IMG/VR virus record: IMGVR_UViG_3300046804_001888 | Location: 1 to 37,558 of that record | DNA length: 37,558 nt | Source: a virus | Direction: 5' to 3' (one strand) | In this document: in pieces, positions 1,456 to 36,386 of the stretch | Layout: each line of letters begins with the position of its first letter | Position numbering within the stretch: the stretch's first letter is position 1 | The notes under the pieces: generated by a model | The model's input: only the letters and a program-made list of their open reading frames with translations | What the model was told of the DNA's origin: nothing | Databases searched by the model: none | Made by a program: the position numbers and the translations under genes

Positions 1456-4400
1456 ATGCCTAATGGAGATATAAAATTTGTAAATCTTACGGCAGCTGCA
1501 ATGGATAAACTAACATTAGATAGTTTTGCTGAAAAAATAAATGAAGTCTCTAAAAAGTTAAAAGAAACTAATAGTAGAGAAGCTGTAGATAAAAATACTA
1601 AGAAAACTTTTTTTGAAGCTATTGACCCATATGCTGCTAATGATATTAATGAAGAACTTTCTAATGCATTATATGTAGCTCTTAAGACAAAAGGAATGGC
1701 TGGGATGAATGTAACATTGATTGTTACTCCCACTGGTAATATAAAAGTAGATTTTGGTATTCGTTATAGAGATTCTAATAGTTCTATAAAAGGGGAAGTT
1801 TATCTATATCAATCTGAAAATGATAAAAGTGTTCCTTTTGAATTAAAAGATTTTGATGATCTTATAGCTAGAATAAATAAAGGAATAGATGAGTATAATG
1901 CTAATCCATCAAATAGTAATAGCACAGATAAAACTAAACTTAAAAATATACCTATAAGATTACTTTCTTCTAGTTTTAAAAGAAGTGTAATGGATAACTC
2001 TGAAATTGGAGAGTATCGTCAATTACTTTCCAGTGTTGGAGCTGCTATAACTAAAAATCCAAATTTAACAATCACTCCTAAGTTTAAACAAAATGCTCCT
2101 TCAAATTCTTCAACTACAGCTGCTACAGTTGATGATATAGATGAAGTACCTATTCCTGAAGATATTGCTGCACAACAGGTTGAGACTATGAGAAAACTTG
2201 CAGAAGCAAAAAGAAAAAAACAAGAGGAAGAAGAAAAAAGAAAACAGCAAGCTGGTGGTGCAAAAAATAAAAATGAGAAAATAGCAGAACTCAGACAAGC
2301 TTATGATGACAGAATTAGAGAGATTAGTAATGAGAAAATGGCTGCTGGAAAAACCAGAGCTGAGGTTAATAGAGAGCTAAGAACTGTAGAAGATCCTAAA
2401 AAAGGAGATCCTAAAATACTTCAAATCCTTCAAGAGATAGCAGCACTTCAGCAAGGAACAGCTAATAAGATAGCTAACAACTTAACAACTTCTGAAGTTG
2501 TAGATATTAATGAGTTTACAAAATGGGTTGAACAAAACCTTCCTGAGTTTATATCTGTAGAAGACCTTAAACTGATGAGCCGTAAAATGAAACAAAACGG
2601 TGTCACTGTAGGTATGTTCTACACTCATATGAATAATATAAAGAATCAACTGGAGGGTAGAATAGCTGTAGGTAAAAAGAGTCCTTTCAAATATCATGAA
2701 GCTTTCCATGCTGTATTTAGAATGCTTCTTCCAGATGATAAGATAGATGAGCTTTTGTCTATAGCTAAAAAAGAACTTCTTGCTAAAGGAGAAAGTGTAG
2801 CTGATCTTAAAAGAAAACTTTTAGAATCAAAACCTGAGTTTTATTCTCAGTTTAGTGATATAGAATTGGAACAAAGAGTTTATGAAGAATATCTGGCTGA
2901 TAGATTTGATGCATGGAAGAGAGATATTAAAACCCCCACCTCATCTAAAAATAAAGGTTTCTTTAGATATCTATGGGATCTTATATCAGGACTTTTCAAA
3001 GCATTTAGAAACTCTGATTCTTTAGAGAACTTCTTTATGAAGATAGAGAAGGGTAAATATAAAAAGAGCCAGATTGCTTCTAACAGATTTACCAGTGAAT
3101 CTCTTGTTTCTGTAACTGAACCTGCCCTTAAGGTGATTAAGATTGGTACAGATTTTATTGAGAATGAATATGGTGAAATGGAAGAGGTTCCTGTCTATCT
3201 TGGTGAAGAAGAAGGTAATGTTCTTTCAGCTACAGTGGCAGCATTGTTCCATAGAAAAATGATGGAAGCTGGTTTGAATGCTTACAATGAAAATATTCTT
3301 GATGAAGTGATTGCAGACTATGCCAATCTATATGACTTTAACTTAAACCCTTACTATGATTCTGATGAATTCTTAGAGAGATATGAAAATCCTGTAGAAT
3401 TTAAAAAGATAGAAAAAAAGATAAACGACAGGTTTAAGATTTTTACTAACCCAGAGCTTATTAAAATATTTAAAGATGCAGCAATGGTGCATATTAAGCT
3501 AATGGGGTATAAAGAACAGATAGATGAAGAAGAGTTTGAAAGAAAAGTGGATGAGTATGGTGACAGGTCTTCTACAGATGGTCGTAGAGAAACATACACT
3601 ATTGGTGGATATGGATCTCTTTCTAAAGAACTTAGACTCTATCTTAGTACAGTTGTAGAAGAAAAGGCTGATGAGTTTGGTAACACTATGTTTATAAATG
3701 ACAAAGGTGAAAAAACCACTCAAACTATTATAGAAGCAGCTAATGCTAATGTTCTATATCAGGGTATTCTTAAGGCTGTTGCTGGATCAGTTACAGAAGA
3801 ACAGATATTAGAAAGACTTAGAATATTTTCTGAAAGCAATCCAGAAGCTAAAAAGTTCTGGAATAAGTTTTCTGGAGATGTAGATTTGGTATATGATGAG
3901 AATGGTGATTTTGTAGATGTTGGAAATAAGAAACAGGCTAACTTGTTTCAGGCTGTAATGAAAGGTTTTTCACAATTCTGTGTAGACTATCTATTTATCA
4001 ATAAAGATATTAGTAAAAGGAAAAGTAGAATCTTAGAAGCTAACCGTAGAGGAGCTGCTAGAAATCAGTTTAGTATTTGGTATAATGCTTATGACAATAT
4101 ATTTGTTGAGAAGTTTTATCACTTAGATAGAGAAAAACAAGATAAGTTTATAGATGATAGAACTAAGTCTTTAGTGTACATCACCAACTGGTTTGGTTCT
4201 CCATTAAACCCAGCTGTCATTGATGCTAAAATACAAGAAACAATTATAGGATTAAAAAATGATCTTGGTATATCACTTTCTCCACTTTATTTAAAGTATT
4301 CATATTTAAAGTCTTTACCTGCTGAATATTTTAATGATCTTACAAAGCCTGAAAGAGCTGCACAATTAAGAATTATTAATGCTTATGATGGTGTCACTCC

Positions 4401-7400: not shown

Positions 7401-10400
7401 CTTTGATATTGATAAATTGTACATGCATATAGTGGATAGCTATAAAAAGAATGGTAAGAGAATAGCCTATGGTACAGCTGTTACAAACAAAGATAAGTTT
7501 GCAGAGTATGTCTATTACATGGCTAAAAAGGATAGAAGTGTTAAAGCTAAAATGGCTGAGCTTAAAAAGATAACAGCCTTTTATGATGAAACTGAAGACA
7601 GATATGAAATTGATGGAGAAATTGAACCTGTAACTACATATGATGATGTACAGGATTTAGCTCATGATTTATTTTCTTCTGAGGTTTCTGCTAAGAACAT
7701 GATGGAGATAATAGCTCTTAAAGAACTTGGACTACCATCCAATGTAGATGAATATATTAAATATGTTGAAGATAAGGGTGAACTTAATAATGGTGTTCTT
7801 AATAATAGAATATTAGATGCTAAGATTAAGTTGGCTAACAATGAAAGAATGGTTTTGTCTAAAAATGGTAAAACCCCTATTGCATTCCAGGTAGCTGAAA
7901 CAAAACCTTTAGAAGATATTATTGATTCATTTATAGAAAGATTCCCTATTCTTCATGATATTCTTATAGAAGACTCAGCAGATGTTGACTCTATAAGAGG
8001 TCAGTTTTATTCTTTTAAAAATAATAAAGAGGGTTCTAGAAACATTGGTCCTGCTGTAAATGCTATGTTGGTGTATGCATTAATGAATGCTTATAAAGTT
8101 CAGATTAGAAAGCAGAATGCAAAAGGAGAATCTATGTTTGTTCTTAACATAGATGGTAAAGATTTTGATAGTTATGGTAATTCTAGAGAATGGAATGATA
8201 ACACTAAAACCCATGACGGTGAACGTATAGCCTATCATATATCAGCTATAGTGTCTGCTATGACAGATAATGCTAAGGAACGTTTGGCTGCAAGACTTGG
8301 ACTAAACTTCAATGCTATTGGTGTAGTTTCTAATATGGTGGCTTTAGGTGTACCTTTAGAAACAGCTATTATGTTTAACCTTCAACCTTCAGTGAGAGAA
8401 TTTTATGAATTAATTTCTTTAACTAACAACAACATTAAGACATCAGAGGAACGTGATATATACAAGAAAGACGTTGGTGAAAATATATTAAAAAAGATAA
8501 ATTCTAAAAGAAGTAGAAAAGAAGAAGAGAGACTTACATTCCCTGTAACCACTCAGTTGCTAGAAGACAATATAAAAACAGTGGGTGATAATGCTGATGT
8601 AGACTACAGTATATTTAAGACTTTCTTTGATTTTTATAAACAAACTGAGGCATTTTCTTCTGTAGCTCAGATTATGAAACTGACACAAGGTTTAGGTACA
8701 AGTAATGAGGATATTGACAAAATAGATGAAGTGGAGGAAAAGCTTGGCTTTAATATGCCAGAATCTGAATTCTTATCAAGTAATATTCCATTTGATGTTC
8801 GTCAGGTGCTAAGAGGTGATAATCCTAGCAAACCACATAACAATATAATAGCTGGTCTTATAAGGATTAAGAATGAAATCAAAGAGCTTCAAAAAAGTAT
8901 CATGATTGAAAGAAGCTATTTATATAAAAGACTTTATGAAACAGTTCTTGAAAATTTACACATACATTCTAAAGAAGAAACTTTTGAAAAAACTCTTAAG
9001 AAAGATATAATAGCCTACTTAGGTATTAAGTCTTACATGAACCTTCTTAAAACAACCGGTAAGGGAGTTAAACTATCTGGTCTTGACAATGCTCTTATAT
9101 ATGATGCTGCAGCTTTACAGAAGGGTGAAGAGTATGAAGATATCATTACAGCAGTTCAGAAGATGAGAGAAACAGATCCTGAAAATGCTTTCTTGAAATT
9201 TATAAATGCTGTACCTGCAGGGTTAAAAGATATAGAAACTGGGGAAATGTTTAGAAACCCTAAAGGAAAGTTTGGTATTAACACTTTGCTTGTAAATACA
9301 TGGGCTTCTTTAGACTTAGCTAAGATTAACAAGATTGAAGATGGTTTGATGGAGCTTTATTCAAATGTAAAAACTAGACCATATGTATATAAGTTGTTTA
9401 ACTATCTACTTGTAAAAGATGGTGGTCAGTTTAAGAATGGAAGCTTTATTAGATTTATGCCTCCTGCTATGTTTAAAGAATTATTAGATGCAACAGGAAA
9501 TGCTCAAGAGCTTCTTAGATATGACAATGCTATAAAAGATGATGAGGCTTATAAAGAAGTATTTGGTGCAACAGCTATGGAAATCTTTAATGAATTCACT
9601 AAGCTGTACACCACTAATGCTAATAATTCTTTTAATGTTAAGATAGTTAATCCTAAAGCTACCCCTGATGAAAAAGTAGAAAGAATACCTGGATATGAAC
9701 CAGAAGTATTTAAATATAATAATGATAGGATAGAGCTTGATATTTTTAAAGGAATTCGTAAAAAAGAACCACAACTTGTTACAGATGAAAATGGTAATGA
9801 GTTTATTATGGAACTTGTAAGCACTGGTAAATTCACTTCCGATGAGTTAAAGAAATTAGATTTTAATAATGAACTATTAAAAGCACATGGCTTTAACATT
9901 GTACAAAAAACTGATGATAAGGGTAAAAAGAAATACTATATAGCTCTTCCTTACACTATAAAGATAGTAGTGTCAGATGATTTAGTTAACGGTAGACAGT
10001 TTGCTTATTACAAACTATCTAATGTAAGTAAGACAAAACAAGATCCAAATAGTCCAGGAATTGGTAACTTTATAATGGATGTAGGTGATAATATGGCTCT
10101 TGGTAGTAAAGCAGTGTATGAAAAGTTTGAACCAGAAGGAGCAAGAGATCAGTGGAAAGTGGGTGGTCTTACAGGTGAAATGCCTACACAGAAAGTGTTA
10201 AGAGACAGATATGGTAAAAAGAAAGTGGGGTATGATGAAGTGGAATATGCTGATGATTTAGAATACTATGAAGCACAACTTGAAGGACTTCCTGATTTTC
10301 AATTAGAAGAGCCTGTTCAAGATCTTGATAAAGATTGGGGTATAAAAACAAAAATGATGGGTAACACTGTAACTTATTATAAATTAGTTAAAGGTAAAGA

Positions 10401-10710: not shown

Positions 10711-13700
10711 ATGACTTGTAGTATATTTAGAAATGATGAAGGTAAAGTAGAAAGAGTAATTGCCCCTAATGGAGAAGAATCTAGATTATATACAGATATT
10801 CTAGCTCATCCAGATGTGCAGGGTGATGAAGACTTAGCTGTAGATCTCTATCTTACAGCATACACTCCATCATTTAAATCCTACTTTGGTGATTTTGAGA
10901 ATGGTGAGATTAAAGGAGTGGTGGATGCTAATAATGAACCCTTCTTAAATTCTGTACTAAACTTTTTAAACCTTCCTGAAAAGACACAACCTCGTGTTAT
11001 TAAGAAAGCTGCTGAGTCTCCTAAAGAAATTCCTACAGAAATTCCTGTAATGAAGAGTGTGGCTAATGTAAATAAAGTGTTGGACAGACTTAAAGAGAAA
11101 TTTGGAATAGAATATGAAATGGTGAATGAACCAAATGCTGACTGGAAAGGAAAGTTTGAGAATGGTAAAGTGTACATCAATGGAGCTAAAGACATCACTA
11201 AAGACACAGCTTTCCATGAATACCTTCACCCTTTTGTTTCTTCTCTTAAAGTAGAGAATCCCACCCTACATGAAAAGCTTATTAACGAATTACAATCTTT
11301 AGAAGATGGTCGTGCAGAAATAGAAGCTGTTAAACAAACTGCAGGATATGCCGGTCTTACACAAGAAGAAATATTAGATGAAGCTTTAGTGAGCTATTTA
11401 GGAAAACTTGCTTCAGGAAATATCACCCTTACAGGAGATGTTGTTGAAAGTAAAGTGGAGAGAGTGAGACAATCTATGCTCACTCAGTTTACTAATTGGG
11501 TTAAAAGAATGTTTAGTAAACTATTCTCCGTCAAGCTAAAAGACTTTAATCTTAAATATAATCTTCAAGATATTGCTAATGTAGTTAGTACATCTGATGT
11601 TAAAATAGATCTATCTGGTCTACCTATTAGTTCCACTCCTCAGTATCAACTTTCTGATGAAACTAAAAAGTTCAAACAAAAAATAAAAAGTCAAGCTAAT
11701 GATCTTCAGAATAGAGTTATTGATGATCTTTTATTTGAAGCTAAGCCAGGAGAACCTGACATGGGTAAAGTGATATTAGAAGAAGAAAATCACGTATATA
11801 TACATACACAGACAGGTCAAACTTATAAATCTGTTACAACAGCTATTAAAGGAGAGCTAGATGATCCAGAAGGACTTTATGAACTAAACAGAATTTTTGG
11901 TAATCATTTTGATAAGATTCTTCAGAACATCATACTTGGTAGAACATATGAGCAATCTAAAGCTGATATGACAGGTGCTATCTCTGAGGAAATATCTAAA
12001 ACAGCATATCAGGCTTTACAGGGATACGTAATAGGTGTGATGTCCGATGGTAGTATTATACTTCCACAAGTGATATTATCCGATCCTCAGTCTGGTATAG
12101 CTGGTTCACTGGATATATTTATAGTGAAGCCTGATGGTAAAGTGTTTATTACCGATCTTAAAGTTTCTAAGAATAGTTACATGAGTAATTATTATAGAAC
12201 AGAAAAACATGATGTAGGAAAGGGGTCTGTATTTACAGGACAGCAATTAACTACACAACAACAACATGGTATTCAGGTGGCCACTTATAAAAGGCTTGCT
12301 GAAGTAAATGGTTATCAAATTGAAGGTATTAGTACTCTTCATATTATTTTAGATGTAGAAGGTAAAACTAAACAACAAAAGGTTAAAGACTTTCAATGGG
12401 AAGGATTACAGGTACATCAGTCTACATCTAATGAAACTTTTGTAGATAAGGTGGTGCCTACTAAATCTAATCGTAATAAAATTAAAGGATTTAGAAAAGC
12501 ACTTGGTTTACAAAACCCTGCTAATGATGATGACTTTTTAGATGATGAAGAAGCTGTACCAGAATCAGTGGAGCTCCCAGAAGATACAAAGAACCTTCTG
12601 CAAAATACTCTTGACATATATGTAAATAAACTCTATCAAAGGATGGAGTACCTTAAGAATCTAAATAAAACAAGATTTTCTGTGTTTAGTGAAAGTAGCC
12701 GGGAACAAGCTGTTGACAGAATCTCAGAACTACTAACAAGTATAGAGGTTGAAAACCTTGGAAAACCTGACAGAGCATTTGGTGCACTGTTAAGATATAC
12801 TAAAGAAACCCTTGATAACTTATACAGATATATAAATGATCCCGATAATGTAGGTAAGCCTGAATACATAGATATAATATTAGAAGCTGAGAAGTTTGTA
12901 GAATCTTATAGGGATATAGCTAGTGTTCCAGAAATGGGACTGGGATCTCAAGAACAGTATAAAGAAATGAGAGCTGTTCAAAGTAGATTAAATGCTGTAA
13001 AAGCAGAAATAAATCCTGCCTTAGAAGCTTATGTTAAAGATTTGATTAGAACAAAAAGCAGCAATCAACTTACAGAAGAAGAGCTTAGTAAACTTCTTAA
13101 AGAAGGGTTTGATATAAGTCTTGATGAATATGCTGTCACTGATATGCAGAACACCAAAGAAAGATTATTAGCTATAGCTGCTAATCTGTATACAGAAGCT
13201 AGTCAAAAAACTTTTAATAAAACAGATGGTATAATTGAAGATATAAAAAAAGCTGGAAATAGATTAGCCAATGCTTTAGGAACCAATAAAATAGATTTTT
13301 CTTTTATGCTTATGTTTGATAAGTTAGGAGAATTTACAGGAAGATATTTAGAAAATATTGGTCAAAAGTATTATGATCTTAAGAAGAAACTTTATGCTGA
13401 TCTTAAAGATGAAAATGGTGACAATCTAGAATATGTCATCATTGAAAACTTAGAAGAGGCTAGTTTAGAAGATATTCAACATAATATAGAGCTTCAAAAG
13501 AAAAAAGAAAAACTTAGAGAGTTTCTTCAAACTGAGAAATTTGAAGGAGATACAATAGTTAGTGGTGAATATCACAGACTTTCTGATGAATTCCGTGCAA
13601 TACGAGCTAAGTATGAGGTGGCTGTTGTATCCGAAAATGGAAAACTATTCTGGAAAAAAAGATCAGATGTAACTGATGAAGACTATAGAAAGTTTTTAAA

Positions 13701-15903
13701 TCGTTACTATGACAGAGCAGAGTATGTATCTCTTCAGTTTGAAAAAGATGGATCTTATAAGGGAAGAACTAAACCCCAAAAAGAAATAGGATATTTTCCT
13801 AAAAAAGAATATGTAGAAGTAAAAGAAGTCACTTCCTCTGGAGTAAAGATGACTGACCCTAGATATGATAAAATAATGAATCCCACTACAGAAGTTGAAA
13901 GAGCTCAAAAAGAATTCTATCAGATGTTTGTTTCTAGAATGAAAGAAGCCCTTGAAAAACTTCCTGTTGATGTTCAGAAAAAAATGTTAGGTAAGGTGGG
14001 TAGAGTGAAGGATAACTACATTAATAATGCTAAAAAGAAAGGAGGTTCTTTCTTTACAGCTGTTACAAAAAATATGAGGGAATGGTTTGATCTATCTGGA
14101 AAAGTGCATTCTGTACAAAGACTCACTGATGATAACGGAGTCATAGTTGATAGTCTTCCTATTCTTTATACAAATGATCCTCGTAATGAAAAGAAAATAG
14201 AATCTATAAAAGAAAAAATAAAAGATCTTAAGAATAAATATATAGTTAGTAAATCCATCACTACAGAAGATTATGAAGAAGAACTTAAAAAATTAGAATA
14301 TTCTTTAGCTGTTGAAAATGGTAAATTAGATTTTAAAGATATTAATCAGAATCTTGTAGAAAACCTAATAGCTTTTACAAAAATGGCTGAGAAATATGAG
14401 CAAATGTCTAATATAGAAAGTGCTCTGTTAGCTATTTCTAAAACTGTAGAAAAGAAAAAATACTACCAGTCTAACTCTATAGCTGAGAAGTTTACATCTA
14501 AAGGAAAAAATAAAAAAGATCTTTATAAAAAAGAAGGTGAGTCATTAGCTTACCAAAGAATGAAGAAATGGTTTAAGATGGTTTATTATAACAACGATGA
14601 GTATGATTATAGTACATTTGCTCAGGTGGCTGATAGACTTCAAAACATTACATCACTTAAAGGTATAGGTCTTAATTTATTTGGTGGTGTGAACAACTAT
14701 GTGATGGGTAGAATAAACAATGCTATAGAAGCATATGGTGGAGTGTACTACCAAAGAAAAGCATACTTTAGAGCTACAGGTGAATATAATAAGGATTATA
14801 TGCCAGGACTCATGAAGAAAATTGGTGCAGATAATGAAGGTCCATACAAGATAGAAAAGCCAAAATCTAAATATGAAGCTGTAGTAGAATATTTTAGAAT
14901 GGTTAGAAAGTTTCAAGCTGATTCTGGACGAGTTGATCTTTTTTCAAAAGCTTATATTTTTCAAGAAATAGGTGAATATAATGTACAGTCTAAAACAGGA
15001 GTGGCTGTTACAATGAGTGATAAGTTTCAGCTTACTAATGAAGAAACTGGTGAAAAGATGTCCATTTATGATGCTTTTAACTTTAATGAAGCCACTGGAA
15101 AGCTTAGCTTAAAACCTGGATTTAATATAGATGAGTCTTTTAAAACTAAAGTGACTAACTACATCTATGAAGTGAATAAACAAATTCATGGTAACTATGC
15201 ATGGGAAGATAGAATGGTGATACAGCAACATGCTTTAGGAGAACTTGGTGCTCAGTTTCATAAGTGGGTGGTTCCTTTATTTAATGCTAGATTTAAAAAA
15301 AGATATGATAATGAAGTGTTAGGATCTATAGAAGGTAGATATAGAACATTCTGGAATGTAATGAAATATATGTACCAAACAGAGCAGGGCGTTACAGGTA
15401 AACTTACAGGAATGTTAAAAGCTACATTTGCTCCCGGATCTGTTAAAGGACTTGATGAATACCAAGTGAGAAATATGTATAAGAATCTAGCTGAACTTGG
15501 TTTCTTTGTAGCTTCTTTTGTAATGTCTCATTTGTTTAGTTTATTAGCTTCAGGACTTGATGATGATGATGAAGAAGTTAAAAAATTAGTTAACTTCCTC
15601 ATCTATCAACAAACTAGACAACAGAATGAGATTAAAACATTTATACCAGTGTTAGGTATAAAAGAACAATATCAGATGGCTAAAAGTCCTATAGCTGCTT
15701 TAAGTACATTAAGAGATTATGGTGAATTTATGGCTTCTATATTAACAATGCCATTTCCTCCTTATGATAAGAATTATTATGAAAGAGGTCCTTATAAAGG
15801 AGATTTGAAGGCTTGGAAAGAAGCTAAAGATATTCTACCTGCTCTCAATCAATTAAATAGATGGGAAAGCTTTGAGACCGTTAGAAGTTTCTATATCAGA
15901 TAA
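10711..15903 (+). CDS. Giant virion protein with HExxH metallopeptidase-like and PD-(D/E)XK nuclease-like domains
   Basis: The 1730-residue protein opens with CSIFRNDEGKVERVIAPNG, a start style I associate with large crAss-like virion proteins (from memory). FHEYLH places an HExxH at residues 169-173, with a downstream LDEALVSYLGK near 220 that could supply the third ligand, so a zincin-type peptidase is likely. Around residues 355-490 there is a nuclease-like core: YKSVTTAIKGE, then GSLDIFIV (Asp468) and ITDLKVSK (Asp482, Lys484), matching the D...(D/E)xK signature of PD-(D/E)XK nucleases. Long Lys/Glu-rich helical stretches follow. Near residues 1590-1620 a hydrophobic segment (LGFFVASFVMSHLFSLLAS) could insert in the host membrane. 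Stacked after the vRNAP on the same strand, it is probably co-packaged and ejected. The role of either enzyme domain is inference. Confidence 0.8.
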   Translation: MTCSIFRNDEGKVERVIAPNGEESRLYTDILAHPDVQGDEDLAVDLYLTAYTPSFKSYFGDFENGEIKGVVDANNEPFLNSVLNFLNLPEKTQPRVIKKAAESPKEIPTEIPVMKSVANVNKVLDRLKEKFGIEYEMVNEPNADWKGKFENGKVYINGAKDITKDTAFHEYLHPFVSSLKVENPTLHEKLINELQSLEDGRAEIEAVKQTAGYAGLTQEEILDEALVSYLGKLASGNITLTGDVVESKVERVRQSMLTQFTNWVKRMFSKLFSVKLKDFNLKYNLQDIANVVSTSDVKIDLSGLPISSTPQYQLSDETKKFKQKIKSQANDLQNRVIDDLLFEAKPGEPDMGKVILEEENHVYIHTQTGQTYKSVTTAIKGELDDPEGLYELNRIFGNHFDKILQNIILGRTYEQSKADMTGAISEEISKTAYQALQGYVIGVMSDGSIILPQVILSDPQSGIAGSLDIFIVKPDGKVFITDLKVSKNSYMSNYYRTEKHDVGKGSVFTGQQLTTQQQHGIQVATYKRLAEVNGYQIEGISTLHIILDVEGKTKQQKVKDFQWEGLQVHQSTSNETFVDKVVPTKSNRNKIKGFRKALGLQNPANDDDFLDDEEAVPESVELPEDTKNLLQNTLDIYVNKLYQRMEYLKNLNKTRFSVFSESSREQAVDRISELLTSIEVENLGKPDRAFGALLRYTKETLDNLYRYINDPDNVGKPEYIDIILEAEKFVESYRDIASVPEMGLGSQEQYKEMRAVQSRLNAVKAEINPALEAYVKDLIRTKSSNQLTEEELSKLLKEGFDISLDEYAVTDMQNTKERLLAIAANLYTEASQKTFNKTDGIIEDIKKAGNRLANALGTNKIDFSFMLMFDKLGEFTGRYLENIGQKYYDLKKKLYADLKDENGDNLEYVIIENLEEASLEDIQHNIELQKKKEKLREFLQTEKFEGDTIVSGEYHRLSDEFRAIRAKYEVAVVSENGKLFWKKRSDVTDEDYRKFLNRYYDRAEYVSLQFEKDGSYKGRTKPQKEIGYFPKKEYVEVKEVTSSGVKMTDPRYDKIMNPTTEVERAQKEFYQMFVSRMKEALEKLPVDVQKKMLGKVGRVKDNYINNAKKKGGSFFTAVTKNMREWFDLSGKVHSVQRLTDDNGVIVDSLPILYTNDPRNEKKIESIKEKIKDLKNKYIVSKSITTEDYEEELKKLEYSLAVENGKLDFKDINQNLVENLIAFTKMAEKYEQMSNIESALLAISKTVEKKKYYQSNSIAEKFTSKGKNKKDLYKKEGESLAYQRMKKWFKMVYYNNDEYDYSTFAQVADRLQNITSLKGIGLNLFGGVNNYVMGRINNAIEAYGGVYYQRKAYFRATGEYNKDYMPGLMKKIGADNEGPYKIEKPKSKYEAVVEYFRMVRKFQADSGRVDLFSKAYIFQEIGEYNVQSKTGVAVTMSDKFQLTNEETGEKMSIYDAFNFNEATGKLSLKPGFNIDESFKTKVTNYIYEVNKQIHGNYAWEDRMVIQQHALGELGAQFHKWVVPLFNARFKKRYDNEVLGSIEGRYRTFWNVMKYMYQTEQGVTGKLTGMLKATFAPGSVKGLDEYQVRNMYKNLAELGFFVASFVMSHLFSLLASGLDDDDEEVKKLVNFLIYQQTRQQNEIKTFIPVLGIKEQYQMAKSPIAALSTLRDYGEFMASILTMPFPPYDKNYYERGPYKGDLKAWKEAKDILPALNQLNRWESFETVRSFYIR

Positions 15904-31183: not shown

Positions 31184-31642
31184 ATGTCACTTAAAAAATA
31201 CAAAGCTCTCAGCCCTGATCCTTATATTAATAAAATAAAAGGAGATACAGAATTAGCTAGACTTGCTCATCTTAATAATCTAGTAGATCAGATTAATAGT
31301 AATGTGGTGGATAGTAGACCTTATAAAGTATATACTGCATTATTAACACAGACTGGAATAAATGACCCAACTGCTATTATATTAGAAAATACATTTGATG
31401 GAGAAATAGTTTGGACATTTGATTCAAATGGTGTTTATATTGGTACATTAACAGATGCTTTTACAAGCAATAAAACTTGGCTAAATATAACAAATAGCGA
31501 TGCGGTTTATGAAGGTGTTTTGTATTCAATTGATTATAATAATGTTAGTCAAGTTTATATAACAACTTATGACATTAATACAACATCATTAACTGATAGT
31601 TTGTTAAATAATACATCAATAGAAATTAGAGTTTATAATTAA
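31184..31642 (+). CDS. Modular virion/fibre-like protein, family B (N-terminal SPD domain)
   Basis: A 152-residue protein whose first roughly 38 residues (SLKKYKALSPDPYINKIKGD, TELARLAHLNNLVDQI) match the N-terminus of the protein at 35940 (ALKKIKPISPDIYLGKTVGD, NEVARLAHVNDIV). The remainder is unrelated: a beta-rich, Asn/Thr-rich domain (NTFDGEIVWTFDSNGVYIGT and on). The shared module is probably a docking domain joining interchangeable surface domains to the virion. No signal peptide or membrane segment. It lies between the spanin-like pair and the M15 peptidase with five-base spacers. Function inferred; no family named. Confidence 0.7.
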   Translation: MSLKKYKALSPDPYINKIKGDTELARLAHLNNLVDQINSNVVDSRPYKVYTALLTQTGINDPTAIILENTFDGEIVWTFDSNGVYIGTLTDAFTSNKTWLNITNSDAVYEGVLYSIDYNNVSQVYITTYDINTTSLTDSLLNNTSIEIRVYN

Positions 31643-31647
31643 TAACT

Positions 31648-32067
31648 ATGCTTACATCTGCACAATGTCTTAAAAAATACGGTGATCCATACAGAACTGA
31701 TGGACACATGGTTATGTGGGATGTACCTAAAGAACTAGAAATAGGAGTTATTCCTAAAAAACTATACTGTAATAAAGATTTAGTAGCACCATTATCTAAA
31801 GCTTTTAAAGCACTAATAACAACAGGATATGTTAAAGAACTTAAAACTTGGGATGGTTGTTTCAATATTCGTAAGAAGCGTGGTGGTTCCACTATGTCTC
31901 TTCATAGCTGGGGTGTTGCTGTTGATGTTAATGCTTATGATAACTGCTTTGGATGCAGCCCTAAGTTCTCTAAAGGGTTTGTAAAATGTTTTACAGATGC
32001 GGGGTTCAACTGGGGCGGAAATTGGAAAAAACCCGATGGTATGCATTTTGAATTAGCTAAGATATGA
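31648..32067 (+). CDS. Peptidase M15 (D-Ala-D-Ala carboxypeptidase-like) endolysin
   Basis: The 139-residue protein has the M15 zinc motif: His86 and Asp93 in SLHSWGVAVDVN and His133 in DGMHFELAKI, with Glu135 probably catalytic. M15 phage enzymes cut peptide bonds in peptidoglycan cross-bridges during lysis. There is no signal peptide, so it needs a holin, and neighbouring small membrane genes are candidates. Several cysteines (CNKD, CFNIR, CFGCSP) are unusual for a short endolysin but not disqualifying. Its stop overlaps the start of the GIY-YIG gene (ATGA). Confidence is high for the fold, moderate for lysis rather than entry use. Confidence 0.85.
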   Translation: MLTSAQCLKKYGDPYRTDGHMVMWDVPKELEIGVIPKKLYCNKDLVAPLSKAFKALITTGYVKELKTWDGCFNIRKKRGGSTMSLHSWGVAVDVNAYDNCFGCSPKFSKGFVKCFTDAGFNWGGNWKKPDGMHFELAKI

Positions 32068-32675
32068 GTTGTATATACACCATAAAAAACATAGTAAATA
32101 ATAAAATTTACATTGGTAAAGCTAGTTGTTTTATTACTAGACAAAAAGAACATTTAAGAAAACTAAAAGCAGGAAAACATGTAAATAAACATCTTCAGTT
32201 TTCTTACAGTAAATATGGAAAAAATGCTTTTATGTTTGATATTTTAGAAGAATGTGATAACACAATTTTAGATGAAAGAGAAAAGTATTGGATTACTTTC
32301 TATGATTCTACAAAAGATTCTAAAGGTTATAATCTTATGTATGGTGGAGAAGGTGGAATAGGAACAAAAGAAACTAGAGAAAAACAAAGTAAAGCACATA
32401 ACAAACATAAAAGAAAAGTGTATGGATTTACTTTAGAAGGAGATTTTTACAAAGTTTGGGAATCTATAAAAGATTGTTCTAGAGACTTATTAGCAAATCC
32501 TTCTGATATAAGAAGAACTATTCAACAAAAACAATACAGTTGTAAAGGATTAGTGTTACAAGATATTGATATTTTTGATAATAGATTAACACCATCTGAG
32601 AAAATTAGTTTAAGATTAAGAAATTTAAATGGTACTTTTAAATCAGGTATGCACTTTCAATTAAAACAAATATAA
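32064..32675 (+). CDS. GIY-YIG homing endonuclease with NUMOD1-like tail
   Basis: A 203-residue protein with IYTIKN (4-9) and IYIGKA (15-20) as the GIY and YIG elements. Arg26 is in TRQKEH, the metal-binding glutamate in LDEREKYWI (around residues 71-73), and Asn90 in GYNLMYGG. The C-terminal half (KVYGFTLEGDFYKVWESIKD, CSRDLLANPSDIRRTIQQ) has the NUMOD1 DNA-binding form found in homing nucleases, similar to the stand-alone peptide at 16109. The ATG overlaps the endolysin stop (ATGA). A free-standing homing nuclease between endolysin and cytochrome genes suggests mobility in this locus; it may have carried neighbours with it. Confidence 0.85.
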   Translation: MSCIYTIKNIVNNKIYIGKASCFITRQKEHLRKLKAGKHVNKHLQFSYSKYGKNAFMFDILEECDNTILDEREKYWITFYDSTKDSKGYNLMYGGEGGIGTKETREKQSKAHNKHKRKVYGFTLEGDFYKVWESIKDCSRDLLANPSDIRRTIQQKQYSCKGLVLQDIDIFDNRLTPSEKISLRLRNLNGTFKSGMHFQLKQI

Positions 32676-32680
32676 AATAT

Positions 32681-34474
32681 ATGAAGAAGTATTTATTTCT
32701 TATTATTCTTTCAGTTGTTGCAATAGGTTCTATGGCTCTTGTAGAGATTACATATAACTACAATAGTTTGAACTTTAATCCTAGTGCAGCAGGAACTCCG
32801 TACACTTATGCTCTTTCTCCTACGTTTCCTAATATGCCAAGAGATATAGATGTTACTACAGACTCTTTGGCTCCAGGTACAGCAGCTGACACTCTTAGAA
32901 ATATGGATAATGAACCATATTCTATAGGACTTAATGGTCAAAGAAACTTCACCACTAATGCTGGTGCAACATTAGGTAGAGTGATATTCTATGATAGAGA
33001 CTTATCAGTAAACCACAGTATAGCTTGTGGAGATTGTCATAAACAAAAGTTTAGTTTTACAGACACTGCTAGACTTAGTTATGGATGGCAGGGACCCACT
33101 GGTCCAAGAACTGGTAGAAACAGTATGAATCTAAATCATATTAGATTTCATAAAGCAATCAGTATGTATTGGGATATGAGAGCTGCATCTATAGAAGATC
33201 AAGTTTGGAGACCAATGCATGATCCTGTAGAGATGGGTATGTCACTAAATCCTGTTACACTTCAAGTTCAACCTAGCACTGTAGCTAGGTGGGATACTAT
33301 TAAAAATAGAATGAATGCCAAATCTTTCTATCCTATATTATTCCAAAAAGCTTTTGGATCTACACTTATAGATAGTCAGAGAATTGTAATGGCTTTAGCT
33401 CAGTTTGTTAGAACAATGAACACATTTGATTCTAAATGGAGAAGAGCTATGAACACTAACACTGGTAATCCTTCTGTAGAAAATCTTCGTGGACTTAATC
33501 AGCAGGAGCTTCTTGGTAGAAATCTTTTTATGGATGTAAATCGTGGTAACTGTCAAGCTTGTCACACACGTAATATTTTTGTTAATCAGGGAGCCCAAAA
33601 TAATGGACTAGATGGTAGCATATTTGCCACTACAGATGGGGGTAGAGTTCCTTACAGAAATTCTGTATGGTTAGCTCAGAATGGAGCTTATACATTTGCA
33701 AACAGAGTGAATGCATTTAATGACTACAATGGTAAAGATTCAGGACTTGGAGGTTGGAAGTATTGGTTTAACAGAAGAGGTGGTAATATACCTGATCCTA
33801 ATAATGTAAATGACTTTGATGCTGAAAGAGGTACAACTAATAGTATAGGGTTTATAGGACGTATGGCTGTTCCTAGTCTTATCAATATAGCTGTTACAGC
33901 TCCTTACATGCATGACGGTAGATATAAAACACTTGATGAGGTGATAAATTTCTATTCAGATAGTGTAAAGAATAGTGATTATAACACTCTATCTGGATTC
34001 TTAAGAAAGATAGATCCTCAAGCTCCTATTAATGAAGGGGTTAAGGGTAAAGATAACGTCTCTCAAGCAGTTGTAGATACATCACCTGTACAAGTGATAC
34101 ATTATTCAACAAGAGAAAAGGCTGCTCTAAAAGCTTTCCTTCTCACTATGACAGATTCCACTATTCTTACAGACCCAAGATGGGGTAATCCTTTCACTGT
34201 AGTGGCAGGAGTTAAAAATACAAAAGACTTAAAACCTGTAATGAATATAGAAGCTTCTTCTCAAGATGACAAGCTTGTAATAGAGGTTGTTAATGGAAAA
34301 GATTTTAATGGATCTATCCTTATATATGATGATAAAGACAGACTTGTAAGAAGAAAGAGTGCAAGATTTGCATTGGGTAATAACTTCTATAAGTTTGATG
34401 ACTTAAAGAAATCTGGATACACTATTATAATCAGAGATGATAATAAAACTATAATGGATAGTAAACAAATATAA
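32681..34474 (+). CDS. Secreted diheme cytochrome c peroxidase (MauG/CcpA family)
   Basis: The 597-residue protein has an N-terminal signal-like segment (MKKYLFLIILSVVAIGSMAL). Two CxxCH heme-binding sites are CGDCH (116-120, in ACGDCHKQKFSFTD) and CQACH (291-295). It also has LGRVIFYDRDLSVNHSIACG and PYMHDGRYKTLDEVINFY, with Met410 a likely distal heme ligand. This is the BCCP/MauG pattern: periplasmic reduction of H2O2 to water using electrons from cytochrome c or a quinol pool, or MauG-like oxidations. Residues about 525-597 form a separate beta-rich domain resembling a T9SS sorting tail. It lies five bases after a GIY-YIG gene and three before a fibre-like gene, with the same AT-rich codon style, so it is phage-borne. 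Which reaction it performs is unknown. Confidence 0.88.
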   Translation: MKKYLFLIILSVVAIGSMALVEITYNYNSLNFNPSAAGTPYTYALSPTFPNMPRDIDVTTDSLAPGTAADTLRNMDNEPYSIGLNGQRNFTTNAGATLGRVIFYDRDLSVNHSIACGDCHKQKFSFTDTARLSYGWQGPTGPRTGRNSMNLNHIRFHKAISMYWDMRAASIEDQVWRPMHDPVEMGMSLNPVTLQVQPSTVARWDTIKNRMNAKSFYPILFQKAFGSTLIDSQRIVMALAQFVRTMNTFDSKWRRAMNTNTGNPSVENLRGLNQQELLGRNLFMDVNRGNCQACHTRNIFVNQGAQNNGLDGSIFATTDGGRVPYRNSVWLAQNGAYTFANRVNAFNDYNGKDSGLGGWKYWFNRRGGNIPDPNNVNDFDAERGTTNSIGFIGRMAVPSLINIAVTAPYMHDGRYKTLDEVINFYSDSVKNSDYNTLSGFLRKIDPQAPINEGVKGKDNVSQAVVDTSPVQVIHYSTREKAALKAFLLTMTDSTILTDPRWGNPFTVVAGVKNTKDLKPVMNIEASSQDDKLVIEVVNGKDFNGSILIYDDKDRLVRRKSARFALGNNFYKFDDLKKSGYTIIIRDDNKTIMDSKQI

Positions 34475-34477
34475 CTT

Positions 34478-35035
34478 ATGAAGAAAAGAGCATTTGCAAG
34501 ATATACTAAGAAAGGACAACTTGTTCCTGGTAGCCTCATAATTACCACTCAAGGTGGTTATCCAAATAAAACTTCTTTATGGAAAGAAGTAGATGTAGAT
34601 TTATTTCAAGAAGCTAATAAATTTTTACCATGGAAAGTAGTTACAACTGGTGAAGCTGGAGATGGTATAATACTTGGTAATGTTAATTCATCAAATCTTT
34701 TTACAGTTATTGGTCCTGATGATGATGTTAATGATGGATGGGTTTATTTAAAAAGATATTTTCCACTAGGAGCTGAATTTTCTATAGATTATAAATGGGC
34801 ATCTCATGATGATAGTGGTATTTCTAATCCTCCAAATGTAGATTGGCCTGTATATTGGACTTCTGTTGCAGAACCTACAGGTATTCCTAGTGATTTAACA
34901 GTTAGAGTTTCTGGAACTCCAGCTAATGGTACATGGAATATTACAGTTAATCCAGGTGAATGGTTTTCTATAGGTATATATAGTGATGACAGCTGTTGTG
35001 GTAGAGGATTTCTACAATTAAGTTTTAACCTTTAA
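34478..35035 (+). CDS. Modular virion/fibre-like protein, family A (RAFxRY domain), copy 1
   Basis: A 185-residue protein with an N-terminal module MKKRAFARYTKKGQLVPGSL, IITTQGGYPNKTSLWKEVDV shared with the next two genes, and a unique C-terminal beta-rich domain (DVNDGWVYLKRYFPLGAEFS and on). The last stretch has CCGRGF, a possible metal or disulfide site. It begins three bases after the cytochrome stop. The conserved start and different ends suggest a common attachment module with different receptor-facing domains. No signal or membrane sequence. Function inferred as surface or fibre; family not named. Confidence 0.7.
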   Translation: MKKRAFARYTKKGQLVPGSLIITTQGGYPNKTSLWKEVDVDLFQEANKFLPWKVVTTGEAGDGIILGNVNSSNLFTVIGPDDDVNDGWVYLKRYFPLGAEFSIDYKWASHDDSGISNPPNVDWPVYWTSVAEPTGIPSDLTVRVSGTPANGTWNITVNPGEWFSIGIYSDDSCCGRGFLQLSFNL

Positions 35036-35047
35036 TATTTATAAACA

Positions 35048-35446
35048 ATGAAAAAAAGAGCATTTGTAAGGTACAGTAAGCAAGGCAAAATTGTACCTGG
35101 TAGTTTGATCCTTACTAGTGGGTCATTCCCTAGTGGACCATCTACATGGAATGAAATTCCAGCAGACTTATGTTGTGATTCTATTGACCTTACATGGGAC
35201 AATGGAGATGTAAGTCTTAATAATGTTTCATTACGAATTAAATGTAATGGGACCACTGTTAAAGAAGTATTTACTAATCAAAATACAACTAGTTCTTCTA
35301 GTTTAGAATCACTTTTAAATATGACATTTGGATTAATTGGTACATTCGTTGTATCAGGAACTCTTGTCACTCTTACTATGACAAGTGCACAAAAAAATGC
35401 ATTTTGTAGTAGTGGTATAATTACTTTTGAAATATTTGAAGATTAA
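35048..35446 (+). CDS. Modular virion/fibre-like protein, family A, copy 2
   Basis: The 132-residue product opens MKKRAFVRYSKQGKIVPGSL, ILTSGSFPSGPSTWNEIPAD, clearly the same module as its neighbours, then diverges (SIDLTWDNGDVSLNNVSLRI and a Ser/Thr-rich C-terminus ending GIITFEIFED). It is the shortest of the three. Its beta-rich end is reminiscent of small adhesin or fibre tips. The twelve-base gap and matching start style make it part of the same rightward operon. Confidence 0.7.
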   Translation: MKKRAFVRYSKQGKIVPGSLILTSGSFPSGPSTWNEIPADLCCDSIDLTWDNGDVSLNNVSLRIKCNGTTVKEVFTNQNTTSSSSLESLLNMTFGLIGTFVVSGTLVTLTMTSAQKNAFCSSGIITFEIFED

Positions 35447-35458
35447 AAATATATTATC

Positions 35459-35935
35459 ATGTCAAAAAATAGAGCCTTTGTAAGGTATAACAAGAAAGGA
35501 ATACTAGCTCCTGGAAGCCTAGTAGTAACTAAGAACTACCCTGATAGATCACAAAATTTATGGTATGAAGTACCCACTAATTTATTAGGAAGCACTACAA
35601 TACTTGAAACTGGTTTATATATGCCGTCACTCCCTTGGGTGTATAATCCAAGTATTTACAAAGCTATAGAATTAGGAATGGGATGTATGTCTAATACAGC
35701 TGATTGGATGAATGTATATTGTCCTCTTACAGAAGATATAACTACAGCAGATCAGTTAGTTAGTATTTTAAATACTAGAATGTCATTTTTGGGAACATTT
35801 GAGCTAGGAAAACTTGATGGAGATTATCAAACAATAATCTTTAATCTGTCTTCACAATTAGCTACAGATTTAAATAAACCTATTGATGCTAGTCCAAACT
35901 ATTGTGGATTTGGCATATCACTTTATATAGATTAA
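35459..35935 (+). CDS. Modular virion/fibre-like protein, family A, copy 3
   Basis: A 158-residue product with the module MSKNRAFVRYNKKGILAPGS, LVVTKNYPDRSQNLWYEVPT. The rest is unique (LLGSTTILETGLYMPSLPWV, LGMGCMSNTADWMNVYCPLT), with several cysteines but no CxxCH. The copy is the most divergent in the module (extra N-terminal residue, LAPGS instead of LVPGS). Three tandem copies with different ends suggest duplication followed by domain exchange. It is placed four bases before a family B modular gene. Confidence 0.7.
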   Translation: MSKNRAFVRYNKKGILAPGSLVVTKNYPDRSQNLWYEVPTNLLGSTTILETGLYMPSLPWVYNPSIYKAIELGMGCMSNTADWMNVYCPLTEDITTADQLVSILNTRMSFLGTFELGKLDGDYQTIIFNLSSQLATDLNKPIDASPNYCGFGISLYID

Positions 35936-35939
35936 TACT

Positions 35940-36386
35940 ATGGCACTGAAAAAAATAAAACCCATTAGCCCAGATATTTATCTTGGTAAAACTGTTGGAG
36001 ACAATGAAGTGGCTAGACTAGCTCACGTAAATGATATTGTAAGTAAATTTAGAAAGACATGGACTTTTGAAGTTCCTACAAGTGGAAGTACAGTTAACAT
36101 CTATCCAAACCATGTAGAAACTATTGTTATTTTTGATGGTCTACTTGTAAATGAATTTACAATTAATATTGTTGTTGATGCTAGATTTAGTCCCAATCTT
36201 GAACCAGGAGATAAAATGTACATCTTTTTAAATGGACCTTCTGGTATTGGTACTAATGTTACTTTTACAGGTGCCGTTAGTGTAACAGTATGTGGAGATA
36301 CTGATAATGTTTATCGAGTAGATACTCCAGTGTGTTTAGAAGTAATATATAATGGTAGTCAATTTATTGGAATAGATATTTGTTAA
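35940..36386 (+). CDS. Modular virion/fibre-like protein, family B, copy 2
   Basis: This 148-residue product shares its first roughly 38 residues (MALKKIKPISPDIYLGKTVG, DNEVARLAHVNDIVSKF) with the protein at 31184, but its C-terminal domain (VPTSGSTVNIYPNHVETIVI, FDGLLVNEFTINIVVD) is different and beta-rich. No signal or membrane segment. That two proteins 4.3 kb apart keep the same N-terminal module while differing afterwards strengthens the docking-domain reading. It closes the array before the small basic protein gene. Confidence 0.7.
   Translation: MALKKIKPISPDIYLGKTVGDNEVARLAHVNDIVSKFRKTWTFEVPTSGSTVNIYPNHVETIVIFDGLLVNEFTINIVVDARFSPNLEPGDKMYIFLNGPSGIGTNVTFTGAVSVTVCGDTDNVYRVDTPVCLEVIYNGSQFIGIDIC

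Follow-up and report, generated by a model that had tools for sequence, protein, structure and literature searches.

The locus described here raises the question of why a phage should carry a gene for an exported enzyme with two hemes, what kind of enzyme this is, where the gene came from and what its product could do in the infected cell. The window, i.e. the whole stretch of DNA that was analysed (37,558 bases), is the whole IMG/VR record IMGVR_UViG_3300046804_001888, which is classed as linear. An earlier note on this DNA had described a secreted diheme enzyme of the CCP/MauG superfamily, encoded by a crAss-like phage, and this general description is supported, with secretion being probable. 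The occurrence in a crAss-like phage of an exported two-heme enzyme that appears to be derived from Chitinophagales and is common to an unrelated phage suggests that some phages control the envelope redox chemistry of infected cells.

The phage and the setting of the gene

Assignment of the phage to the crAss-like group is supported by a predicted protein of 1730 aa encoded at 10711..15903 (+), which is homologous to crAss RNA-polymerase subunits (E ~1e-26). The replication genes are located on the minus strand. General searches identified no capsid, portal or terminase gene in the 37.6-kb fragment.

The di-heme gene (32681..34474, +) is intact, with an uninterrupted reading frame of 597 aa from ATG to stop. 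Upstream are the gene of an M15-type endolysin (31648..32067, +), which is recognised by PF13539 (E 7e-14) and PHROG endolysins and conserved in relatives, and an ORF for a GIY-YIG homing endonuclease (32064..32675, +; PF01541, E 3.5e-9; PHROG homing endonuclease, E 6.8e-30). The latter ends 5 bases ahead of the di-heme gene, and the next ORF starts 3 bases behind it at 34478, in agreement with the phage neighbours at 3-5 bases reported earlier. Because the GIY-YIG protein ends in GMHFQLKQI (32646..32675, +), which at the amino-acid level matches the endolysin tails of relatives, this segment is a possible remnant of the endolysin 3' end. The endonuclease may thus have inserted at the end of the endolysin gene, which the di-heme gene may originally have abutted; at the nucleotide level the match for such a duplication is weak.

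The gene directly downstream (34478..35035, +) belongs to a family with a conserved N-terminus. The related contig L163 keeps the M15 and GIY-YIG genes and, on the same side, the downstream gene, but the slot between them has different contents: a metzincin-like protein (2099-3043, +), a membrane protein and a protein that matches T9SS type C weakly (3588-4226, +). The region between the homologues of g29679 and g36570 is variable among relatives and holds unrelated exported proteins. A search of 48 DNA-polymerase relatives, many of them fragmentary, did not find the di-heme gene.

Further features of these relatives were recorded. In one crAss-like relative the region in which the window has the di-heme gene encodes an exported 567-aa protein (L179, 4946-6649, -, in G032) with CTNCH near the N-terminus and a PF18962 T9SS type A domain above the cut-off, with a same-family match in G013 at 8320-8553. 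Another crAss-like relative has a gene (L167, 3190-8151, -) for an exported protein of 1653 aa in which SprB repeats occur, a feature of gliding adhesins. Two gene families of the window, one at 34478-35935 and one at 31184-31642 and 35940-36386, have members in many relatives; about 40 N-terminal residues are conserved (KKRAFxRYxKxGxxxPGSL; SPDxYxxKxxGDxExARxAHxN) and the C-termini are variable, as if a common anchor bore exchangeable domains.

Type and domains of the enzyme

The CCP/MauG superfamily assignment of the earlier note was borne out by PF03150 (CCP_MauG), to which the protein scored 132.4 bits against a cut-off of 25.6 (E 2.7e-38), far above chance; PHROG families gave no match. 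The signal-like N-terminus noticed before is hydrophobic and represents a predicted Sec signal region without lipobox (approximately residues 1-20, 32681..32740, +; MKKYLFLIILSVVAIGSMAL). CxxCH motifs occur exactly twice, at residues 116-120 and 291-295 as previously given, and the LGRxIFYDxxLS-type segment (LGRVIFYDRDLS) and PYMHDGR were likewise found. Heme site 1 (C116-G-D-C119-H120; 33026..33040, +) is by analogy the peroxidatic heme, and heme site 2 is C291-Q-A-C294-H295 (33551..33565, +). Both sites are invariant in the 30 homologues compared, as are Trp164 (33170..33172, +), which aligns with the WDGRA motif of solved BCCPs and is the equivalent of the inter-heme Trp in BCCP/MauG, Glu184 (33230..33232, +), which aligns with the VEM motif of solved enzymes and is the equivalent of the catalytic Glu (MauG Glu113), and Tyr425 (33953..33955, +). 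With Gln174 and Pro178, Trp164 and Glu184 make up the peroxidatic-pocket residues, all of which are present in the sequence.

The PYMHDG motif (residues 408-413; 33902..33919, +) is near-identical in the MbnH-like 6e1c and in MauG. The earlier note had named the protein a cytochrome c peroxidase with a distal Met in PYMHDGR, and both parts of this reading were rejected. The likely ligand position of the second heme is Tyr425, 14 residues past the PYMHDG His, which a gap-free MauG alignment from PSL to FY places on MauG Tyr294. The corresponding position is Met in BCCP 1iqc; across the set it is Tyr in all MauG-type homologues examined and Met in the BCCP-type phage homologues. Trp136 sits at the position of the BCCP gating His (S-x-G-H loop) in an alignment with MacA that is approximate in the loop. 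The features of a classical BCCP, Met at H+14 in PYxHxG and the gating His, are thus replaced by Tyr425 and Trp136, which is the MauG/MbnH pattern.

The closest solved structure by sequence is 6e1c, an MbnH-like enzyme, and the fold matches of an AlphaFold2 model (mean pLDDT 72) are ranked 6e1c, then MauG, then BCCPs, with the BthA structure also among them. The search with MauG profiles suggested in the earlier note gave matches, but the curated cut-offs of the MauG and MbnH families were not reached. MbnH proper (TIGR04039, 172.9 bits against an equivalog cut-off of 362.85, E 9e-51) and TTQ-type MauG proper (TIGR03791, 80.2 bits against 443.85) were therefore rejected. The Tyr ligand, Trp136, the fold and the kept residues indicate that the phage protein is very probably a MauG/MbnH-type di-heme enzyme, though below the cut-offs of both named families.

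The earlier note had described a purely periplasmic product and overlooked a C-terminal domain of seven predicted strands (residues 518-597; 34232..34471, +) that resembles T9SS type A sorting domains. These last 80 residues align to the tails of two Bacteroidota homologues, L002 and L003; both of them, like L195, carry a recognised T9SS sorting domain there, of type A by TIGR04183 in L002 and L003. Searches of Pfam and NCBIfam gave the phage domain no PF18962 or TIGR04183 match above the cut-off. A small model made from five sorting domains scored the phage tail above 2000 shuffles, and structure models, in which the seven strands are predicted, match the solved T9SS C-terminal domains 8qb1 and 8gl6_D (mirolase, RemA) with TM 0.58-0.68, as they do other Ig-like folds. 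Homology and fold likeness to known sorting domains make a diverged T9SS sorting domain probable, and the di-heme protein may be destined for the cell surface.

Origin and viral relatives

Among cellular genes the closest relatives are chromosomal and belong to Chitinophagales, and the nearest relative of all, with 60-65% identity, was found by profile scan in another viral contig, L162. In a tree with host Bacteroidetes enzymes, as proposed in the earlier note, the two phage enzymes form a 100/100 clade among the Chitinophagales enzymes, and a second tree reproduced this result. Further viral scans for this MauG-type phage clade found only L162. In L162 the tail genes are followed by genes for small membrane proteins and then by the di-heme gene, at whose stop codon a GH24 phage lysozyme gene starts. 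The tail and primase genes of L162 have weak matches to Cellulophaga phages, and this contig is not crAss-like in any gene examined. The di-heme gene thus abuts the endolysin gene in L162, whereas in the window one homing-endonuclease gene lies between the two; the endolysins are of different families.

Both phage enzymes have insertions in common that are absent from the sampled hosts. Between the two copies dN is 0.37 and dS about 1.9 (near saturation), with dN/dS of approximately 0.19; the phage enzymes are under purifying constraint. GC3 of the di-heme gene is 0.21, compared to 0.18-0.29 in large phage genes, and the host homologues have 41-48% GC. As judged from the sequence comparisons, the phage enzyme derives from a Chitinophagales enzyme, with an unsampled host lineage as a possible common donor of both copies.

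The host homologues examined have no conserved partner gene next to them. In L195 the enzyme is fused to repeats and the sorting domain. The domain at the end of L196, L197 and L199 recurs at the end of unrelated exported proteins encoded on the L197 contig (L202) and may be another anchoring or sorting module. Several exported Chitinophagales proteins (L201 4755-6125, L202 8884-10221, two other L202 ORFs and L203 4589-6013) have one type of terminal domain in common, with WxxGxxGTxxVxQ near the stop, which is a possible sorting or anchoring module as well.

A scan for TAPY[M/F]HDG and a profile scan delivered ten IMG/VR contigs of 27-172 kb (L216-L225) with a separate di-heme peroxidase of the BCCP type, which argues against the rarity of such enzymes in viruses assumed in the earlier note; a truncated match in a 16-kb contig (L213) was left out. 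The N-termini are mostly lipoprotein-like, the ligand is Met in all six proteins in which it is readable, and the peroxidases form their own 100/100 clade. PHROG matches of neighbouring genes support phage origin in each of the three contigs tested, and the two longest contigs encode T4-type gp23 (E ~1e-64); searches of the large-phage contigs with terminase (phrog_2) and phrog_9 gave nothing usable. With the MauG-type phage clade and this separate clade, di-heme peroxidases have entered phages at least two times, as two biochemical types. Four matches (H1-H4) came from phage collections. H3 and H4 were rejected as Salmonella genome records, and H2, in which an enterobacterial ccm operon lies, was treated as bacterial DNA, with H1 giving the same match. 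OR845265.1 (Escherichia phage ECO95 1-6-1) is filed as a phage record, but with its enterobacterial ccm operon it has the look of bacterial DNA.

Possible function and comparison with known systems

The best explanation, to which we give an even chance, is that a crAss-like phage, presumably of Bacteroidota, encodes a MauG/MbnH-type enzyme of Chitinophagales origin which acts as a peroxide-driven oxidant in the envelope. The protein would be exported late in infection by the Sec system of the host, alongside the neighbouring lysis genes, and would receive its hemes from host cytochrome c maturation; by way of the C-terminal domain it may reach the T9SS of the host and the cell surface. The heme with the open site would be oxidised by hydrogen peroxide, and the oxidising equivalents would be shared between the second heme and Trp164 and spent on electron donors or residues of the envelope, with consumption of peroxide. 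We infer peroxide-driven oxidation in the host envelope as role and location, be it for peroxide removal or for target modification. The most likely single role, proposed tentatively and at somewhat less than an even chance, is to lower envelope peroxide and so to keep the infected cell and the new virions intact until lysis; it is favoured because a peroxide-type enzyme was captured by other phages also (BCCP type, two of them with T4-type gp23). Against the best explanation, a surface location would sever the enzyme from periplasmic electron donors, and the putative sorting domain stays under the T9SS family cut-offs. Since the L162 homologue has no C-terminal domain, surface export would not be common to both phage enzymes.

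A role in modifying one particular target in the envelope, comparable to the Trp modification of partner proteins by MauG and MbnH, is possible though not expected; with its MauG/MbnH set of ligands and its surface-directed relatives, the enzyme is nearly as likely to do this as to consume peroxide. The target would be a receptor or a component of T9SS or gliding, and rival phages would be excluded or the cell surface changed. The Tyr ligand with Trp for the gating His, the nearest structures, the sorting-like domain pointing to the surface and the further surface-type proteins, also exported, that related phages encode in this region are consistent with such a role. Neither the examined host homologues nor either phage copy have a conserved partner gene beside them, however, and MbnP (PF20243) gave no Pfam match among the scanned neighbours and none in seven related phage records, in a search in which the control genomes were silent as well. 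BthA is a Tyr-ligated di-heme enzyme able to act as a peroxidase; as enzymes with this ligand also include the protein-modifying MauG and MbnH, the reaction is not readable from the sequence. It is improbable that Bacteroidota phages carry MauG-type enzymes in their late gene set which are routed by the T9SS to the surface and there use peroxide to oxidise a surface protein, so altering the host, e.g. by blocking superinfection or T9SS/gliding function; if true, phages would have a new class of control over the host envelope, one based on redox chemistry.

It is equally doubtful that the gene is cargo (a moron) that serves the phage in no specific way and, like several other genes for Bacteroidota surface proteins, has inserted near lysis genes, with benefit to the host or none. 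The variable region with its unrelated exported proteins, the missing gene in the searched relatives and a C-terminal domain that is degenerate here and missing in L162 would fit cargo, but all catalytic and heme residues are kept under the constraint described above, the codon usage is that of the phage, and the phage copies are mutually closest relatives, suggesting long residence in phages. A bacterial fragment joined into the phage contig by assembly is highly improbable: the exact arrangement is seen in one contig only, yet the frame is kept across the short intergenic gaps, GC3 is phage-like, the closest homologue lies in an independent viral contig and L163 keeps the flanking gene order around different slot contents.

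Returning to the peroxide-driven envelope oxidant as the preferred reading, the separate captures of two enzyme types, by Bacteroidota phages and by other phages, two of them with T4-type capsid genes, indicate that extracytoplasmic peroxide chemistry can matter to phages. The predicted dependence on host heme attachment and export is a test of how strongly phages, late in infection, rely on the envelope machinery of a living host. The few phage genes that may supply cargo to the type IX secretion system, which is specific to Bacteroidota, are joined here by one for a redox enzyme. The literature searched, exclusive of supplementary tables and subscription papers, yielded no report of a di-heme peroxidase or MauG from a phage, and the novelty is provisional.

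Among known systems, phage cargo of the T9SS was reported for Cryophage (PMC7468147) and crAss-BACON phages (PMC6949934), which likewise encode products with T9SS type A sorting domains; the cargo named for them includes glycoside hydrolases, a PA14 protein and BACON proteins, with no heme enzyme mentioned in the parts of these reports consulted, and the sorting domain of the di-heme enzyme differs in falling below the family cut-offs. The enzymes of L216-L225 belong to the same superfamily and are exported and phage-borne, but are of the Met-ligand BCCP type where the motif is readable, form a separate clade and are not of the Bacteroidota MauG type. With BCCPs (e.g. 1iqc, 3o5c) the phage enzyme has in common the PF03150 fold, the heme sites, WDxRA and the Gln/Pro/Glu pocket, whereas it has Tyr for Met at the second-heme ligand and Trp136 at the gating-His position. 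MauG of TTQ biosynthesis (PDB 3l4m) agrees in the position of Tyr425 on Tyr294, two c-hemes and the kept Gln/Pro/Glu of the pocket, but no methylamine dehydrogenase genes were found in the window. MbnH (6e1c; TIGR04039) is the best match by sequence and fold and has the Tyr ligand position and TAPYMHDG; the phage enzyme differs by inserted loops at about 189-203 and 313-390 and by the sorting-like C-terminal domain, and no partner MbnP gene was seen. The surface di-heme enzymes of Chitinophagales (L002, L003, L195-L197) belong to the same 100/100 clade with 49-55% identity over the catalytic half; L002, L003 and L195 have C-terminal extensions with sorting domains, and the Chitinophagales copies are chromosomal with 41-48% GC, whereas the phage copies carry extra insertions.
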